A stretch of 56,524 nt of DNA from Rhodospirillales bacterium (lineage in GTDB: Bacteria; Pseudomonadota; Alphaproteobacteria; Rhodospirillales; Magnetovibrionaceae). Position numbers and translations under genes: made by a program. The stretch lies in the NCBI GenBank assembly GCA_024653965.1, contig JANLGW010000048.1, forward strand, positions 1 to 56,524. The letters run 5' to 3'. The notes under the pieces were generated by a model that worked only from the letters and a program-made list of their open reading frames with translations, did no database searches and was not told where the DNA came from. Below, in pieces: positions 14,597 through 37,288 of the stretch; within the stretch, counting starts at the first letter, position 1; each line of letters starts with the position of its first letter.

Positions 14597-16015
14597 ATGA
14601 TTTCGTTCCGTGGAACGTTGAACAATATGGTTCAACCGGGCTTTATCCGGAGCGTGTTGCTGTTGGTGGTGGCCGTCGCAATCATCTTTCCCACGTATGA
14701 AATATTTTCCGTATATCCTCGGTTTACCAAGTTTTTAGTCGCTTCGGTCGAAGATGAAGCAAAACGGACGGCGGCGCATTTTTCGTCGATGATCAATTTT
14801 GAAGAACAGGAAATAAAGGCCGGAGCCTTATCTCCCTCGGCAGAAGCCGTAGTTGCCGAGATGGTTAAAGATTTCAATCTGGTCAAGGTTAAGGTCTTTA
14901 CGCCGTCGGGAGAGATTATTTATTCCACCGATGCAAAAGACATCGGCACGGTTAATACGCGCGATTATTTTGCAAATGTCGTCGCCAGAGGCCTTCCGTA
15001 CACCAAGGTTGTGGAGCAACAGAATGACAGCCTTGAGGGACAAGCCTATACGTCCGATGTGGTCGAGACTTACGTTCCCATAATGAGGGATGGAAAATTC
15101 ACCGGTGCGTTTGAGATTTATTACGACATCACGGAACAAAAGAAACATTTGGATGAACTTCTTTTCCTTTCGTCTTTAGGTCTGTTGGCGCTGACCTTGG
15201 GCCTTGTCGCCATGATGGTCGCAGTGCTGTTTAAGGTAAGCCAAAGCATCCTTAAAACTAGGCAAGCCGAAGAGGCGTTGCGCCAATCTCAAAAAATGCA
15301 GTCGTTGGGCAACTTGGCGGGCGGCGTCGCCCATGAAATGAACAATCTTTTTTTCCCCATTTTGGCGCTGTCGCGAATGACCTTGGAACGGTTGCCCGAC
15401 GACAGTCCTCATCGGGAGCGGTTGAAAAAAATTGTCATCGCCAGCGAACGGGGAAAAGCGTTGGTCGATCAAGTCATGGCATTCAGTCGCCATGAGCATC
15501 CCCAACGAGAGCGCCTGGATATTTATACAGCCGTTCGTGAATCCTTAGGCCTAATATGCGCCACGTTGCCTTCGACCGTTACCCTTCATGACCAGTTGGA
15601 TGAAGATGTTGGAACGATATTAGGGGATGCATCCCAGATTGGTGCTGTATTGATGAATTTGATCAGCAATGCGCAAGATGCGATGGCAGGTCGGATCGGA
15701 AAAATCGATGTTGTTCTGAGCCGGGTTGAGATTGACGCCGTTGCCGCGCGCCAAGTTGCCGGATTGAAAAGCGGCGTTTACGCCAAGCTGTTTATTAAAG
15801 ATACCGGGGTGGGCATGGATGAAAAAATACTGGAACGTATTTTTGATCCCTTCTTTACTACTAAAGAAGTGGGACAGGGCACGGGCTTGGGTCTTTCAAC
15901 GGTTTATTCCATCGTTACCCAACACGAAGGTGCCATTCGCATTTCCAGCCAGCTTGGCGTCGGCACGGAGGTGGAGGTGTTCTTCCCGCTTGTCCGTAAA
16001 GATACCGCGAACTAA
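14597..16015 (+). CDS. sensor histidine kinase with periplasmic sensing domain
   Basis: A 472-residue membrane histidine kinase. A transmembrane helix at about 18-36 is followed by a periplasmic sensor of about 150 residues that looks like a single Cache/PAS domain ([47 protein letters not shown]). A second helix at 188-212 follows. The dimerisation/phosphotransfer domain has His246 in [14 protein letters not shown]. The ATPase domain has [11 protein letters not shown] (N box), DTGVGMDEK and [17 protein letters not shown] lies 6 nt before the ATG. A terminator follows at 16058. No response regulator is next to it, and the ligand is unknown. Confidence 0.9.
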
Positions 16016-16057
16016 AGACAGGGAGGGCGCGAAGCTTGACCCTCTTGATGACAAATC

Positions 16058-16076
16058 CGGCCTTCGGGCCGCTTTT
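16058..16076 (+). terminator. UUCG hairpin terminator after the first kinase
   Basis: CGGCC, TTCG, GGCCG form a 5-bp stem with a UUCG tetraloop followed by CTTTT, 42 nt after the kinase stop. This would separate the first kinase transcript from the following secreted protein and second kinase. Confidence 0.65.
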
Positions 16077-16160
16077 GATGCTAGGCAATGGGGTGGTTTT
16101 GTTTCACAATCCCATCTTAGTGTTGTGGTTATTAGGCCCACGTCGCCGGGAGATGTGAGT

Positions 16161-16670
16161 ATGTTTGGTTTTCGTACCGCCGCTGTGGCTGTTTTGTCAC
16201 TGCTTTTCGTTTATGGATCAGGCCTGCACGCCGCAGAGGTCAGTCCCTTTTCGGGAAGCCACGCGCCGCTGTCCGGCGAAGGCTATGACTTGAAGATCGG
16301 CGATAGAGTATTCAGCTTGGCCGAAGTTCAAGGCATGCAGACCTATCAATCGACGTTCAAAACGGCCTTTAATTTTGAGGGAACATTTGTCGGCGTGAAA
16401 CTTCTTGACGTTTTGCAGCAAGCCGGAATTGGCGATTTTAAGCGCCTGTTCGTCCGCGCGGCCAATGATTATAAGGTGACGGTTTCACCCTCCGACCCAG
16501 GTATTGACCAAGCTTTGTTGGTCTATAGCCTCAACGGCAAGCTTCTCCCCCTTAACGACAAGGGACCCTATTGGTTGGTTTGGCCGCAAAACGCCGAGGC
16601 CGTGCTCGCCGGGGACGCCGCGACCACCAAGTGGTCTTGGAGCGTGGTGGAAATTCAGAAAATTTTTTGA
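16161..16670 (+). CDS. secreted SUOX-fold (molybdopterin-binding-like) protein without Mo-ligand cysteine
   Basis: A 169-residue protein. The ATG at 16161 has GGGAG about 8 nt upstream, and a signal peptide follows (MFGFRTAAVAVLSLLFVYGSGLHA). The mature part resembles the oxidoreductase molybdopterin-binding domain of sulfite-oxidase-type enzymes (ADVQGM-type strand, GTFVGVKLLDVLQQAGI, YWLVWPQNAEAV), but it has no cysteine at all. The molybdenum-ligand site before the G-V-x-L-x-x-L motif is replaced, so catalysis is unlikely. The next gene, a sensor kinase with a periplasmic domain, starts 1 nt after its stop. It may bind a ligand and act with the kinase. That role is inference. Confidence 0.8.
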   Translation: MFGFRTAAVAVLSLLFVYGSGLHAAEVSPFSGSHAPLSGEGYDLKIGDRVFSLAEVQGMQTYQSTFKTAFNFEGTFVGVKLLDVLQQAGIGDFKRLFVRAANDYKVTVSPSDPGIDQALLVYSLNGKLLPLNDKGPYWLVWPQNAEAVLAGDAATTKWSWSVVEIQKIF

Positions 16671-16671
16671 C

Positions 16672-18120
16672 ATGAATCCTCAACCACAGAATCGATTTTT
16701 GAATGTATTGGTGCTTGCTCTTTACGCGGCGCTTTCTGTTTGGCTGATCGTTGCGCTCAACCAAACGTTAAAGGCCGCCGAAGATGAAATGAAGGAAATG
16801 CCACGTTCCTTTCTCATCGATATCGCCCATACCGAAGCGGAATTTCGCACCTTCGCGCAACATCTGCGCTTAACGCAGGCGACGAACACCGAAGAAAACT
16901 TAAACAGACTGCAACAGCTTGAAAGCCGGACCAATGTTTTAAGAAGTTCCTCGATGCGTTTGGGAATGCCGACCATTACGGTCGATGCGTTTATTCAAGA
17001 ACTGAACAACTACGAGACCCTTGTTCAAGAGTTGGAAACAGTATTAAGCGACCCTGCGCCGGGAACGCCCGAATTCGATGCCACGGTGGATCGGTTGCTG
17101 CGGTCGATTGAATTTAGTATTGCCTTTCTCTACACCGAAGGCACGGCGCTATTGGCCCAGCATGCAAGTGAACACGTTCGAATTCTCAGCACATTATCGA
17201 CATCGCTTTCAACGTTGGTCGGCATTGTGCTGACCTTGTTTGCGGGTTTGTTTTTATCGTTGCGCAAGGTCCATCGCCAAAAAACCGAACTGCAAAAAGC
17301 CAAGGAAGAATTGGAGCATAACTTAATCGAGCTGAAATCTTCCAAGGCCGTTCTGGAACGGCAGGCTTTCGATCTTGCCGGACTTGCTGAAAAAGAGTCG
17401 GCTCTTGCAGAACAGTTAAATTATGAAGTCGGCGTGAAGGACAGATTCTTTTCCATCATTTCCCATGATCTCAAATCCCCGTTCACCGCTCTTTTGGGCA
17501 TGACGGAAATGATGTCGGATATGGCCGATAATTTAAGCAAAGAAAAGCTTATCGAATATGCGAAAAATATAAATGAATCGGGCAGCCGGATTTTTGAACT
17601 GTTGCAGAATCTTCTGGAATGGTCGCGGCTGCAAATGAAGGGCGGAACGTTCGAGCCGGAGACCATCCGATTGGAAGACGTGGCCCAGGAATGCATTGAT
17701 ATCTTGGTGTCGAATGCGATGGCCAAAAACATCAAGCTGAGCAACAAGATTGAAAATGCGCCCGCTTTCGCCGACCGTTACATGGCCCAGGCCGTGATGC
17801 GCAATCTGATCGCCAATGCCCTGAAGTTCACCCCCTCCGGCGGGGCGGTTGAAGTGACGTGTCAAAAACAAGACCACGAGATTCAAATCACGGTCAGCGA
17901 CAACGGCGTCGGCATGACGGCCGACCATGCACAAAAGATTTTCGCGTTGGACCAAAAAACGTCGCTGCGGGGAACGGACGGTGAAATCGGCACTGGCCTG
18001 GGGCTGCCGCTTTGCAAAGAAATGGTCGAAAAATGCGGCGGGCGGATTTGGGTGGAAAGCACTTTAGGCAAAGGCTCTCAATTTCATTTTACCTTGCCCG
18101 TGGCGCCCGTCGCACCATAA
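16672..18120 (+). CDS. sensor histidine kinase with helical periplasmic domain
   Basis: A 482-residue membrane kinase. A transmembrane helix at about 9-29 is followed by a roughly 140-residue helical periplasmic region rich in Leu, Gln and Glu (NLNRLQQLESRTNVL), then a second helix at 178-198 and a long coiled coil (KTELQKAKEELEHNLIELK). HisKA contains His265 (FFSIISHDLKSPFTALLGM), and the HATPase domain has NLIANALKFTPSGG, DNGVGMTADHA and GTGLGLPLCKEM. It begins 1 nt after the stop of the secreted SUOX-fold protein, so the pair is one transcript and probably one sensing unit. It ends close to a 264-bp inverted-repeat element. No response regulator is present nearby. Confidence 0.9.
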   Translation: MNPQPQNRFLNVLVLALYAALSVWLIVALNQTLKAAEDEMKEMPRSFLIDIAHTEAEFRTFAQHLRLTQATNTEENLNRLQQLESRTNVLRSSSMRLGMPTITVDAFIQELNNYETLVQELETVLSDPAPGTPEFDATVDRLLRSIEFSIAFLYTEGTALLAQHASEHVRILSTLSTSLSTLVGIVLTLFAGLFLSLRKVHRQKTELQKAKEELEHNLIELKSSKAVLERQAFDLAGLAEKESALAEQLNYEVGVKDRFFSIISHDLKSPFTALLGMTEMMSDMADNLSKEKLIEYAKNINESGSRIFELLQNLLEWSRLQMKGGTFEPETIRLEDVAQECIDILVSNAMAKNIKLSNKIENAPAFADRYMAQAVMRNLIANALKFTPSGGAVEVTCQKQDHEIQITVSDNGVGMTADHAQKIFALDQKTSLRGTDGEIGTGLGLPLCKEMVEKCGGRIWVESTLGKGSQFHFTLPVAPVAP

Positions 18121-18134
18121 CGCTGATGGCTTAA

Positions 18135-18398
18135 GGTCGTGTACTCAGTTCTCTCATGAAAAATGGCGCCGAACCCGCAATCAGGGGCTAGGAAACGCCC
18201 GCCGTGCGGGGCGATATCCCCGGACAAGGGCGTTGACGACGCCCATGGCGGCGGTTTTGGCGTTCGTAGAATCTGGTGAATTTGTCCTTCCACGGCGTCG
18301 CAAAACCTTGAAAACCATGTGGGTTTCCTGCGGCTTTGCTCCTTGTGGACGAATAAATTCTCGCAGACCATTTCCATGACAGAATTGAGTACACGGCC
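18135..18398. mobile_element. 264-bp element with long imperfect terminal inverted repeats (MITE-like)
   Basis: The ends are inverted copies of each other: left 18135-18166 starts GGTCGTGTACTCAGTTCT, and right 18368-18398 read on the minus strand starts GGCCGTGTACTCAATTCT. About 27 of 31 positions agree. The inside is otherwise non-coding, with no intact transposase. It fills the gap between the convergent kinase and carbonic anhydrase genes; the stop codon (TAG) of the carbonic anhydrase overlaps its right tip. TA flanks both ends, but an exact target duplication is not certain. A non-autonomous transposon relic is the simplest reading. Confidence 0.6.
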
Positions 18399-19051
18399 TA
18401 AGTGAGCCTCTCAAAGGTGGCCCTTTGCGGATCGTAGGCCGTCAATTCGCCTTCGACGATATCGAGATACCAGCCGTGGATTTCAAGCGTGCCGGCGTCT
18501 ACCCTTTCTTGAATGAAGGGAAAGCTCATCAGGTTTTCCAGCGACACCAGCACCGCCTGGCGCTCGCAACAGCGCGCTAAGGCTTCACCGGACACGTTGG
18601 GGTCGATGGTCTTGGCGCGGTGGAACGCCTGGGCGGCGATGGCGGTCCAGGCGTGGATGAACCGTCCGGCAATCTTGCCCTGTTGTTGGTTGTCGATCAT
18701 CGCTTGAATGCCTGCGCAGTGGGCGTGACCGAACACGACGATATGCTCGACGCCCAAAACTTCGACGGCGAATTCCAGCGCCGCCGACGTGCCGTGATAG
18801 GATACGTCGCCTTCCTCGTCGACTTCAAACGGCGGCACCAGATTGGCGACGTTGCGAATGGCGAAGATGTCGCCCGGTTCGACTTGCAAGACAATGGCCG
18901 GATCGACGCGCGAATCCGCGCACGCGATCACCGCCACCTTGGGCTTTTGTCCTTGGCTCACCAAGCGGCGATAGAGATTCTGGCGCTCGAAAAAATAGCG
19001 CGCACGAAAATCGTTGAACCCGGCGACGAGTTTTTTGATCACGGCGTTCAT
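18398..19051 (-). CDS. beta-class carbonic anhydrase
   Basis: A 217-residue cytoplasmic enzyme interconverting CO2 and bicarbonate. The zinc site is intact: Cys44 with the Asp46/Arg48 dyad in ACADSRVDP, and His109 and Cys112 in VVFGHAHCAG. GDIFAIRNVANLV is also typical of the family. Its ATG overlaps the stop of the upstream alpha/beta hydrolase gene (ATGA), so the two are translationally coupled. The stop codon lies at the edge of the 264-bp inverted-repeat element. Together with carboxylating or 2-oxoacid-synthesising enzymes it may supply bicarbonate; no regulation is visible. Confidence 0.95.
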   Translation of the reverse strand: MNAVIKKLVAGFNDFRARYFFERQNLYRRLVSQGQKPKVAVIACADSRVDPAIVLQVEPGDIFAIRNVANLVPPFEVDEEGDVSYHGTSAALEFAVEVLGVEHIVVFGHAHCAGIQAMIDNQQQGKIAGRFIHAWTAIAAQAFHRAKTIDPNVSGEALARCCERQAVLVSLENLMSFPFIQERVDAGTLEIHGWYLDIVEGELTAYDPQRATFERLT

Positions 19052-25124: not shown

Positions 25125-26492
25125 ATGAGTGGGTTGACGATCCTTCTGCGGATTGCGGCGATCATCTTCGTGGTCGAGGGGATGATCATGCTTGCCTTGT
25201 CGCGGTTCGCGCAGTTGTCGCCGCAGGTCACTACCGCGATTGACGTTTTGATGTTGGTGCTGATTTCGTCGCCCTTTATTTTTGTTTTGGTGATCAAGCC
25301 TTACGTTGCCGCCCGCACCCAGGAAATCAACAATGCCCGGGAAATTGCGGAACGCGCCAACAGAACGAAGGACGAGTTTCTCGCGCACATGAGCCATGAA
25401 TTGCGCACGCCGTTAAACGCGGTGATTGGTTTTGCGCAACTGTTGCAGTACAACCCGGGCGAACCGCTTTCCCCGGCGCAGGTCGACTACACCAACAGCA
25501 TCATTTACAGCGGCAAGCACCTTTTGGAAATCATCAACGGGATGTTGGATTTGGCCGCGATCGAGGCTGATCGGGTGCATATCAGCATGGAAGACATCGA
25601 CGCCAGGGTGCTTTTTGAAGAATGCATCAGCCTGATGCGGCCCGCCGCAGAGGCCCGCAAGATCAAACTGTCGAATCTTGCTTCAAATGGCCTGAACCCG
25701 CAGTTGCACACGGACGTCGTGCGCCTTAAACAGGCACTGATCAATTTGTTGTCCAACGCCATCAAATACAATGTCGTGGGCGGCGCGGTGACGCTGGATG
25801 CGAAGCTGATGGGCGACGGTTATTTCCGCATTTCCGTCATCGATACCGGCAAAGGCATCGCGCACGAATACTACAACAACATCTTCGAACCCTTCGACCG
25901 CTTAGGCGTCGAAAGCACGCGCTCCATCGAAGGCACCGGCATCGGTTTGACCGTGACCAAAAAACTGGTGGAAAAAATGAAGGGCCGCATCGGTTTTGAA
26001 AGTCAGGAAGGAGCAGGCTCCACGTTCTGGGTCGAGATTCCGCTGGCCATGGAGCAAAAACAGCTACTCTGGAACGAAGACCTGAGTGTGGGGGTCGAAG
26101 CCATCGATTCCGACCACAAAATCTTAATTGAGCTGCTGAACAAAGTCAGCGATCCCGTCTTGAGCCATACGGAAGTGAGCGAAGTGCTCACGGAACTGTT
26201 GAACTATACGGTGGGCCACTTCAAACGAGAAGAAGCGGTGATGGCGGCGTGCGGATATCCCAAGTTAGCCGAACATATGAGAATCCATCATCTATTGGCC
26301 GCCAAAGCCACGCTTTTGGCCGAAGAATGGAGCGAAAGCGAAAAACCTGAAGTCGTCGAGCAATTGCTGGATTTTTTGAGGGCCTGGCTGGTCAAACACA
26401 TTATGGAAGAAGATAAAGCGATCGGGCGCTATATTCTCGGCCATGAGAGAGAGGTCGATGGTGCTTTGCAAAATATCGAAAAAACCGCTTAA
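25125..26492 (+). CDS. membrane histidine kinase fused to a C-terminal hemerythrin domain
   Basis: A 455-residue protein. Two membrane helices (about 6-25 and 38-60) with almost no periplasmic part are followed by HisKA with His91 (AHMSHELRTPLNAVIGF), HATPase (LINLLSNAIKY, DTGKGIAHE, GTGIGLTVTKKLV), then a bacteriohemerythrin domain from about 318 to 447. The latter keeps its di-iron ligands: LSVGVEAIDSDHKIL, GHFKREEAVM, HMRIHHLLAA and KHIMEEDKAIG. It therefore probably senses O2 or NO directly. It sits between infC and rpmI, whose neighbours normally abut, and between inverted palindromic repeats (24963 and 26525). No response regulator is adjacent. Confidence 0.92.
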   Translation: MSGLTILLRIAAIIFVVEGMIMLALSRFAQLSPQVTTAIDVLMLVLISSPFIFVLVIKPYVAARTQEINNAREIAERANRTKDEFLAHMSHELRTPLNAVIGFAQLLQYNPGEPLSPAQVDYTNSIIYSGKHLLEIINGMLDLAAIEADRVHISMEDIDARVLFEECISLMRPAAEARKIKLSNLASNGLNPQLHTDVVRLKQALINLLSNAIKYNVVGGAVTLDAKLMGDGYFRISVIDTGKGIAHEYYNNIFEPFDRLGVESTRSIEGTGIGLTVTKKLVEKMKGRIGFESQEGAGSTFWVEIPLAMEQKQLLWNEDLSVGVEAIDSDHKILIELLNKVSDPVLSHTEVSEVLTELLNYTVGHFKREEAVMAACGYPKLAEHMRIHHLLAAKATLLAEEWSESEKPEVVEQLLDFLRAWLVKHIMEEDKAIGRYILGHEREVDGALQNIEKTA

Positions 26493-36028: not shown

Positions 36029-37288
36029 TTAGGCATGGGCCTGTTTGCCGTAGTCCAGGTTTGACCGTTCCGGCGGAAAATGGGCCGTAACCGTCGTGCC
36101 GACGTTAATCGTGCTGTCGATGGTTAGCGTTCCGCCGTGAAGTTCCGTCAACTCCATGGTCAGCGTCAAACCAAGACCGGCGCCTTCGTGTTCGGCGACC
36201 TCGCCGCGGCGCACCTGACTGAAAGGCTCCATCGCTTTAAGGATATCCGCCTTTGTCATGCCGACGCCGGTATCGGTGACGCTAAAGACCTGCCCGCCGT
36301 TTTCGGCGGTCCAGACACGCAGCATCACGTCCCCGCCTTGGGGCGTGAACTTTACCGCATTGGTCAGCAAATTGATGAGAATCTGCTTCATGCGCCGTTC
36401 ATCGGCAATGATAAACGTAGGCTCGGCCTTAATCTCGGTGCCGAGTTTGACACCCTTCAATTCGGCGCGCGTGCGCACATAACGCATCGCATCTTGCACC
36501 AATTCGCCGATATCCAGGGTGGATTCATACAATTCCATTTTGTGGGACTCGATGGCGATGATATCGAGCATGTCTTTGATCAGGTCGTACAGATGATGGC
36601 CGGAGGCGCCGATGTCTTCAACATAACCTGCATATTTTTCGTGACCGATGGGGCCGAAAATCTGCTGCTTGATGGTTTCGGAAAAACCGATGATGGCATT
36701 CAGCGGAGTCAAAAGTTCGTGACTCATATGCGCAAGAAATTCCGTTTTGGCTTCCGACGCGCGCTCGGCTTCGATCTTGGCGCGGTCGTAATGTTCCACC
36801 ATTTCCACATATTGTATGGCAAGCGCCTCGGCGCGTTCGCGCGCGTCTTGCAGGGTGAAAATTTCCTTGATCAAGCGATCGTTGGTGCGCCGCAATTTTT
36901 GTTCGGTGTTCCTGAGCGTCAGCGCGAGACGCGTAACCGCCGACAACGACGAGTGCTGAGAGGGATCGAGAATGAATTCAGCGATCGCGCCGTCGGCGAT
37001 AAAATTATAGCCCGTGTCCACCGCATCGGCATTCGACAAAACGATAATGGGGGTTTTCAACCCCGCTTCTTGCGAATTGATGATAATCAGGTGCGCCAAG
37101 TGCGGCGCTTCTTTTCGGTTGAGAATAAAACAAATGTCATGACGCCCCGCGACCAGGGCTTCAAGCGCGACATCTTGATCGTCGACATCGTCGATGTCGA
37201 TTACAACGGCTTCACCCTTAAAGGCATCTTTCAATGCCTCTCGGATTTCCGGATTTCCACTGACCAGTAAGACCTGAAAATGTTTCAT
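36029..37288 (-). CDS. cytoplasmic histidine kinase with an N-terminal pseudoreceiver
   Basis: A 419-residue soluble protein. The first 120 residues look like a response-regulator receiver fold (HFQVLLVSGNPEIREALKDAF, KTPIIVLSNADAVDTG), but the phospho-acceptor site is degenerate: HDICFILNRKEA has Leu56/Asn57 where Asp is expected. A coiled-coil linker is followed by HisKA with His190 (AHMSHELLTPLNAIIGFSE), N box (ILINLLTNAVKFTPQGG), DTGVGMTKA and GAGLGLTLTMEL. It could be a phosphorylation-independent sensor receiver feeding the kinase. No other signalling gene is adjacent. Confidence 0.87.
   Translation of the reverse strand: MKHFQVLLVSGNPEIREALKDAFKGEAVVIDIDDVDDQDVALEALVAGRHDICFILNRKEAPHLAHLIIINSQEAGLKTPIIVLSNADAVDTGYNFIADGAIAEFILDPSQHSSLSAVTRLALTLRNTEQKLRRTNDRLIKEIFTLQDARERAEALAIQYVEMVEHYDRAKIEAERASEAKTEFLAHMSHELLTPLNAIIGFSETIKQQIFGPIGHEKYAGYVEDIGASGHHLYDLIKDMLDIIAIESHKMELYESTLDIGELVQDAMRYVRTRAELKGVKLGTEIKAEPTFIIADERRMKQILINLLTNAVKFTPQGGDVMLRVWTAENGGQVFSVTDTGVGMTKADILKAMEPFSQVRRGEVAEHEGAGLGLTLTMELTELHGGTLTIDSTINVGTTVTAHFPPERSNLDYGKQAHA

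Follow-up and report, generated by a model that had tools for sequence, protein, structure and literature searches.

PruR proteins are described as secreted proteins of about 170 amino acids with a SUOX-like fold that lack the Mo-ligand cysteine, and Trp160, Tyr104 and position 102 are given as their pterin site (PMC13259868, 2026 review). More than 5500 pairs are reported there, and both PruR-DcpA and PruR-DTB pairs are described. In the latter, exemplified by Ruegeria pomeroyi DSS-3, PruR is combined with a histidine kinase carrying a DcpA-like periplasmic domain; DTB proteins may have all or part of the PAS, HK and Rec domains, and the vast majority of them, though not all, carry a WX7E motif in the periplasmic domain (PMC13259868).

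The window analysed here, the 56,524-nt contig JANLGW010000048.1 of a Rhodospirillales bacterium of the Magnetovibrionaceae (GCA_024653965.1), contains a gene pair which is very probably a divergent PruR-DTB pterin-signalling pair. This assessment draws on the predicted fold, the pterin-site residues, the pairing and its conservation, the homology of the sensor half, and the presence of pterin-pathway genes. The kind of module has been described before; the window pair stands apart in belonging to a divergent subfamily, whose kinase core differs and whose partner motif is degenerate. The features of the region are as follows.

14597..16015, + strand: separate upstream histidine kinase, judged to lie outside the module
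16058..16071, + strand: weak 5-bp stem-loop in the gap that separates the upstream kinase from the pruR-like gene
16161..16670, + strand: pruR-like gene; 169 aa, predicted to be secreted, cysteine-free, SUOX fold, probably pterin-binding; N102, Y104, W160
16161..16232, + strand: putative signal peptide, about residues 1-24, read from the sequence
16672..18120, + strand: DTB-type membrane histidine kinase, putative partner of the PruR-like protein; 482 aa
16672..17310, + strand: sensor half of the kinase, with TM1, a helical periplasmic domain of about 140 aa, and TM2; TM limits by reading
17407..18117, + strand: HisKA-HATPase_c core with H-box SHDLKSPF; nearest match in its own genome is the C82 kinase (49%)

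Organization of the locus

The pruR-like gene extends from an ATG at 16161 to a TGA at 16668–16670 and is separated by a single nucleotide (16671) from the ATG of the kinase gene at 16672, which ends with a stop codon at 18118–18120. By reading, the N-terminus of the small protein (FGFR, a hydrophobic run, LHA-AEV) resembles a signal peptide. The initial annotation of a signal-peptide-like, cysteine-free protein encoded 1 nt before a membrane kinase is thus confirmed in its essentials; position 16058, with which its range begins, is where the stem-loop and not the gene starts. The terminator which it had placed behind the upstream kinase could not be substantiated: seven terminator-like sites were counted on both strands of 15900–18450, as compared to 4.0 ± 2.0 in shuffled sequences, a frequency not clearly above that of the shuffles.

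The second kinase upstream is real, but the Cache-like sensor attributed to it is not borne out, as Pfam yielded only kinase-type or chance matches and no Cache domain at E values up to 10. This kinase was considered as a part of the module and rejected, because no kinase gene precedes the pair at two orthologous loci. The contig of 56 kb codes for a total of four histidine kinase cores (14597–16015, 16672–18120, 25365–26048 and 36089–36751). The small gene is present as a single copy in its genome; the profile search of the class genomes gave a weak match at C113:82167, inside a 261-aa reading frame. Directly 3' of the kinase gene lies a MITE-like stretch of 266 bp (18134–18399), bounded by 29-nt inverted repeats that are 86% complementary. 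Among 31 genomes searched, 13 matches to this element occur in one member of the family (G011) and a partial one in another genome (G005); only the present copy was reported for the genome itself, for which the scoring covered 24 of 45 candidates.

Fold and probable pterin site of the small protein

The four best matches of the small protein among PDB sequences, 7kom (1.8e-11), 7rkb, 7kos and 7kp2, all bear the title PruR in the fold library, and a profile of 14 sequences, i.e., the window protein and 13 relatives, aligned with 7kos with an E value of 9.2e-56. An AlphaFold model built from three sequences was of moderate quality (pLDDT 68.3, pTM 0.65; the five models ranged from pLDDT 68.3 down to 33.2). 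In a Foldseek search with this model, PruR entries occupied the first seven rows (five entries, 18–26% identity) and outranked all enzymes, with sulfite dehydrogenases following and YedY-type proteins further below. The relation to SUOX, which had been proposed from the sequence, is therefore seen as a clear match of the fold, while the Pfam model Oxidored_molyb scored just below its cut-off (22.1 versus 24 bits). The NCBIfam SoxC model matched weakly, and every enzyme model remained below its cut-off.

The pterin-site residues N102, Y104 and W160 are all present, the latter two being invariant across the 14 aligned sequences. R132, a nearly invariant position of this alignment, is replaced by N in the window protein. 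Based on sequence and model, the protein looks like a member of the recently described PruR family, whose members sense pterins outside the inner membrane; the pair is consequently, in all likelihood, a diverged form of an established signalling system and not one of a new kind.

With respect to a pterin source, the genome encodes FolE and a short-chain dehydrogenase/reductase (SDR) with the motif TGX3RXG, the arginine motif of pteridine reductases, whose best PDB match is FolM (5tgd, 8.4e-70). Among the NCBIfam models this FolM-like SDR passes only the cut-off of NF006597, a family without a named substrate; with the models for pteridine reductase and dihydromonapterin reductase it reaches 189 of the 288 bits and 119 of the 249 bits, respectively, that their cut-offs require.

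Sensor half and core of the kinase

HisKA and HATPase_c domains of the window kinase exceeded the Pfam cut-offs, and PAS or Rec domains were not detected by Pfam. Residues 1–247 were modelled as all-helical with four helices (mean pLDDT 80.0, pTM 0.56), in line with the helical periplasmic domain of the initial annotation. When aligned by hhalign to a profile of the sensor halves of 51 PruR-linked kinases, the sensor half gave a P value of 9.6e-7 over 204 columns extending from TM to TM; the reversed alignment gave 0.0081, and 20 shuffles gave values from 0.0084 to 0.054. An earlier profile of 62 ORFs had yielded 1.8e-7, with controls of 0.0017 or worse, but it was less clean in that it included some probably spurious ORFs such as one from locus L011, which is why the comparison was repeated with the 51 kinase partners. 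The match to seven sensors of GGDEF (cyclase)-linked proteins from other clades was unconvincing (P 0.0069). By phmmer, the sensor half came closest to L076 (1.7e-13), a GGDEF partner from a Marinomonas-type genome, and a Foldseek search with the kinase sensor returned zero matches at E <0.001. Judging from the profile alignment, the sensor half of the window kinase is homologous to those of PruR-linked kinases.

The columns corresponding to W-x3-Q-x3-E are occupied by W in 41, by Q in 45, and by E in 35 of the 51 kinase partners. The window kinase reads I49-x3-H53-x3-E57 at this position, so that the tryptophan is lost and the glutamate kept; by this alignment its WX7E motif is degenerate. 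E57 is absent from both orthologous kinases.

The kinase core has a different set of relatives. It shares at most 31% identity (109 bits) with 13 typical DTB kinases of related bacteria, as opposed to 49% identity (213 bits) with a kinase of its own genome, the nearest relative of the core in that genome. This C82 kinase (C82:4745–5428) lies in a frame of 443 aa in which, by reading, the N-terminal stretch is receiver-like and a membrane span is missing. Of the remaining kinase partners of PruR, those from loci L173 and L174 scored 298 and 302 bits, respectively, the next best scoring 102 bits. These two belong to orthologous pairs in genomes G1080 and G1078, which have the same gene order as the window but other flanking genes. 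The PruR-like proteins of the two pairs are 47% and 45%, and the kinase cores 60% and 59%, identical to their window counterparts; the sensor half shares 20–21% identity with those of the two orthologues and 22% with that of a GGDEF partner of the Marinomonas type. The occurrence of the pair in these three genomes in differing contexts indicates a small conserved PruR-kinase subfamily, for which a limited literature search retrieved no description. A chimera confined to one genome was considered and dismissed, given the orthologous pairs in the window's order. A three-row sensor profile, searched against 385 genomes of the class, recovered only the window and, weakly, genome G185; since it missed typical DTB kinases, its reach is limited to close relatives. 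The G185 match was rejected as due to chance, because the long minus-strand frame at this site reads as a chemoreceptor-like HAMP protein and gave no match with the DTB sensor profile.

In a tree of 61 rows, from which 15 loci without an assigned partner, the Marinomonas-type near-copy L076 and three rows of <140 aa were omitted, the window PruR clusters with three PruRs of GGDEF-linked loci in a clade of four rows (99/96). A tree of 30 chosen rows, which included closer relatives and three rows of the Marinomonas type, places it in an 11-row clade (100/100) together with the two kinase-linked orthologues from the window's own taxonomic order (L173, L174), six GGDEF-linked PruRs, three of them of the Marinomonas type, and two unpartnered ones; a GGDEF protein thus follows 6 of the 8 other partnered PruR genes of the clade. 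Over the whole 30-row tree, the starred branches require the label "kinase" to change three times or more. By sequence, the window PruR and the sensor half group with a clade whose partners are mainly GGDEF proteins. The kinase core probably became attached to this sensor module independently of the common DTB kinases; this is the simplest reading of the data. A possible alternative is the replacement of the core within an older DTB lineage, because the sensor half evolves fast. According to a wider proposal, histidine kinases linked to pterin have more than one origin: in this lineage, the combination of a PruR sensor module of the GGDEF-linked kind with a core from a family other than that of the common DTB kinases would constitute a separate route from extracytoplasmic pterin to phosphorelay, with docking independent of WX7E. 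This proposal stands at about even chances in our estimation.

The divergence of this clade also bears on the ligand. A PruR-fold partner which still regulates the kinase but has changed its ligand, be it for another pterin, a derivative of folate or some other small molecule, would be consistent with the separation of the window clade from typical PruRs in the 30-row tree, with the exchange of R132 for N and the degenerate partner motif, and with PMC13259868, where the ligand specificities of the PruR groups are treated as an open question. However, the conserved N102, Y104 and W160 as well as FolE and the FolM-like reductase speak against such a drift, which is considered rather unlikely.

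Pairing in other genomes

Matches to the small protein were found in 17 of 60 genomes of relatives, 132 of 385 genomes of the class (searched with the profile, many of the weaker matches being in frames of >220 aa), 57 of 398 genomes of the phylum, 35 of 293 genomes of the order of G575, and 76 of 317 genomes of the window's own order, the genome under study being counted wherever it was part of the set. Viral contigs did not contain any relative. For 77 non-redundant loci (78 less one duplicate: 19 from relatives other than the genome itself, the best 30 of the class and the best 29 of the phylum), about 1.5 kb on each side was surveyed. The downstream gene codes for a kinase in 51 and for a GGDEF protein in 11 cases, and for neither in 15 at the first pass; as the loci were drawn from the best-scoring matches, these numbers are biased to good homologues. 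The two findings by which the initial annotation was to be refuted, homologues mainly without a kinase and a fold unrelated to SUOX, did not emerge, but the partner is not in every case a kinase.

In nine of the 15 remaining loci, the locus includes an ORF with a DTB sensor domain, and in another (L077) a GGDEF protein that has this domain is encoded about 1.3 kb further on; for L102, no partner was found. The other four (L005, L011, L013, L014) represent another subfamily, in which the N-terminal stretch differs and the fetched stretch contains no sensor-domain partner. In a further set of loci, overlapping partly with the 77, a partner is present in 52 of 59 cases. The seven loci without it are L114 (identical to the L077 locus), L175 (G1089), where the sequence stops at the contig end, L177, L178 and L179, where no partner was detected within 12 kb in six frames, and L182 and L194. 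Three PruR-like genes of one genus (g629; L206, L207, L208) likewise have no kinase, GGDEF protein or DTB sensor within 12 kb in six frames. Upstream of the PruR-like gene and on the same strand, loci L203, L207 and L208 carry a methylmalonyl-CoA mutase gene (Pfam); a kinase is present in L203, and a partner is missing in L207 and L208.

The pairing of the PruR-like gene with a partner exceeds chance and recurs in many genomes. That the two window genes are merely adjacent, with the kinase sensing a signal of its own, would agree with those homologues without a nearby partner and with the fast evolution of the sensor half relative to the core. However, this is quite improbable in view of the gene order kept in two genomes with other flanking genes and of the frequency of pairing across the family. 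Least credible of all is a Mo-cofactor enzyme of the SUOX/MsrP family encoded beside a kinase by chance, as suggested by the SUOX fold and the sub-threshold Oxidored_molyb and SoxC matches: this reading was discarded because PruR structures rank first and the protein has no cysteine at all and hence lacks a SUOX-type Mo ligand, a cysteine within the last 135 residues occurring in 0 of 59 partnered homologues and in 1 of 74 of all counted.

Proposed signalling and comparison with described pairs

For the favored interpretation as a PruR-DTB pair, we infer export, pterin binding, docking, the sign of the response and its target as follows. The small protein would be exported to the periplasm and there bind a reduced pterin, probably tetrahydromonapterin-like and synthesized by way of FolE and a reductase of the PruA/FolM type. 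The complex may then dock on the adjacently encoded kinase at its helical periplasmic domain and shift the activity of the kinase, which presumably passes the signal on to a response regulator whose gene lies elsewhere in the genome; 73 receiver matches were counted in the genome, 71 of them above the cut-off, and none is located on the contig of the window. If this is right, related PruRs and sensor halves with either GGDEF or kinase output offer a natural comparison of how PruR and partner communicate, suggesting that signal reception is separable from output, and the WX7E motif would be dispensable in some partners. The role of a periplasmic ligand-binding partner, as initially proposed, fits the evidence; the claim of a new sensing module does not stand, given the PruR-DcpA and PruR-DTB pairs described in PMC13259868.

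As described in PMC13259868, PruR-DTB pairs share with the window pair the order of pruR before the kinase gene, a cysteine-less SUOX-fold protein of about 170 aa, a periplasmic domain between two TMs and a HisKA-HATPase_c output; unlike most of them, the window kinase has a degenerate WX7E motif. The window PruR also differs in grouping with GGDEF-linked PruRs, and the kinase core derives from another lineage than those of the 13 DTB kinases of relatives. The PruR-DcpA pair of Agrobacterium (PDB 7kos, 7kou) likewise has a PruR-type protein and, according to the same source, the same gene order and type of periplasmic partner domain, but the output of DcpA is synthesis and breakdown of c-di-GMP instead of a histidine kinase (PMC13259868). 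The Marinomonas pairs of a PruR-like and a GGDEF protein (L105, L106) resemble the window pair in the PruR (36% and 35% identity) and in the sensor half of the partner (27% and 26%, both TMs spanned), whereas the Marinomonas partner, of 386 aa, carries a GGDEF output instead of a kinase core, the GGDEF domain having been scored in the near-identical type L076/L112. With SUOX/MsrP (YedY) and the sulfite dehydrogenases, the window protein shares the fold, but it is far shorter and lacks the Mo-ligand cysteine.
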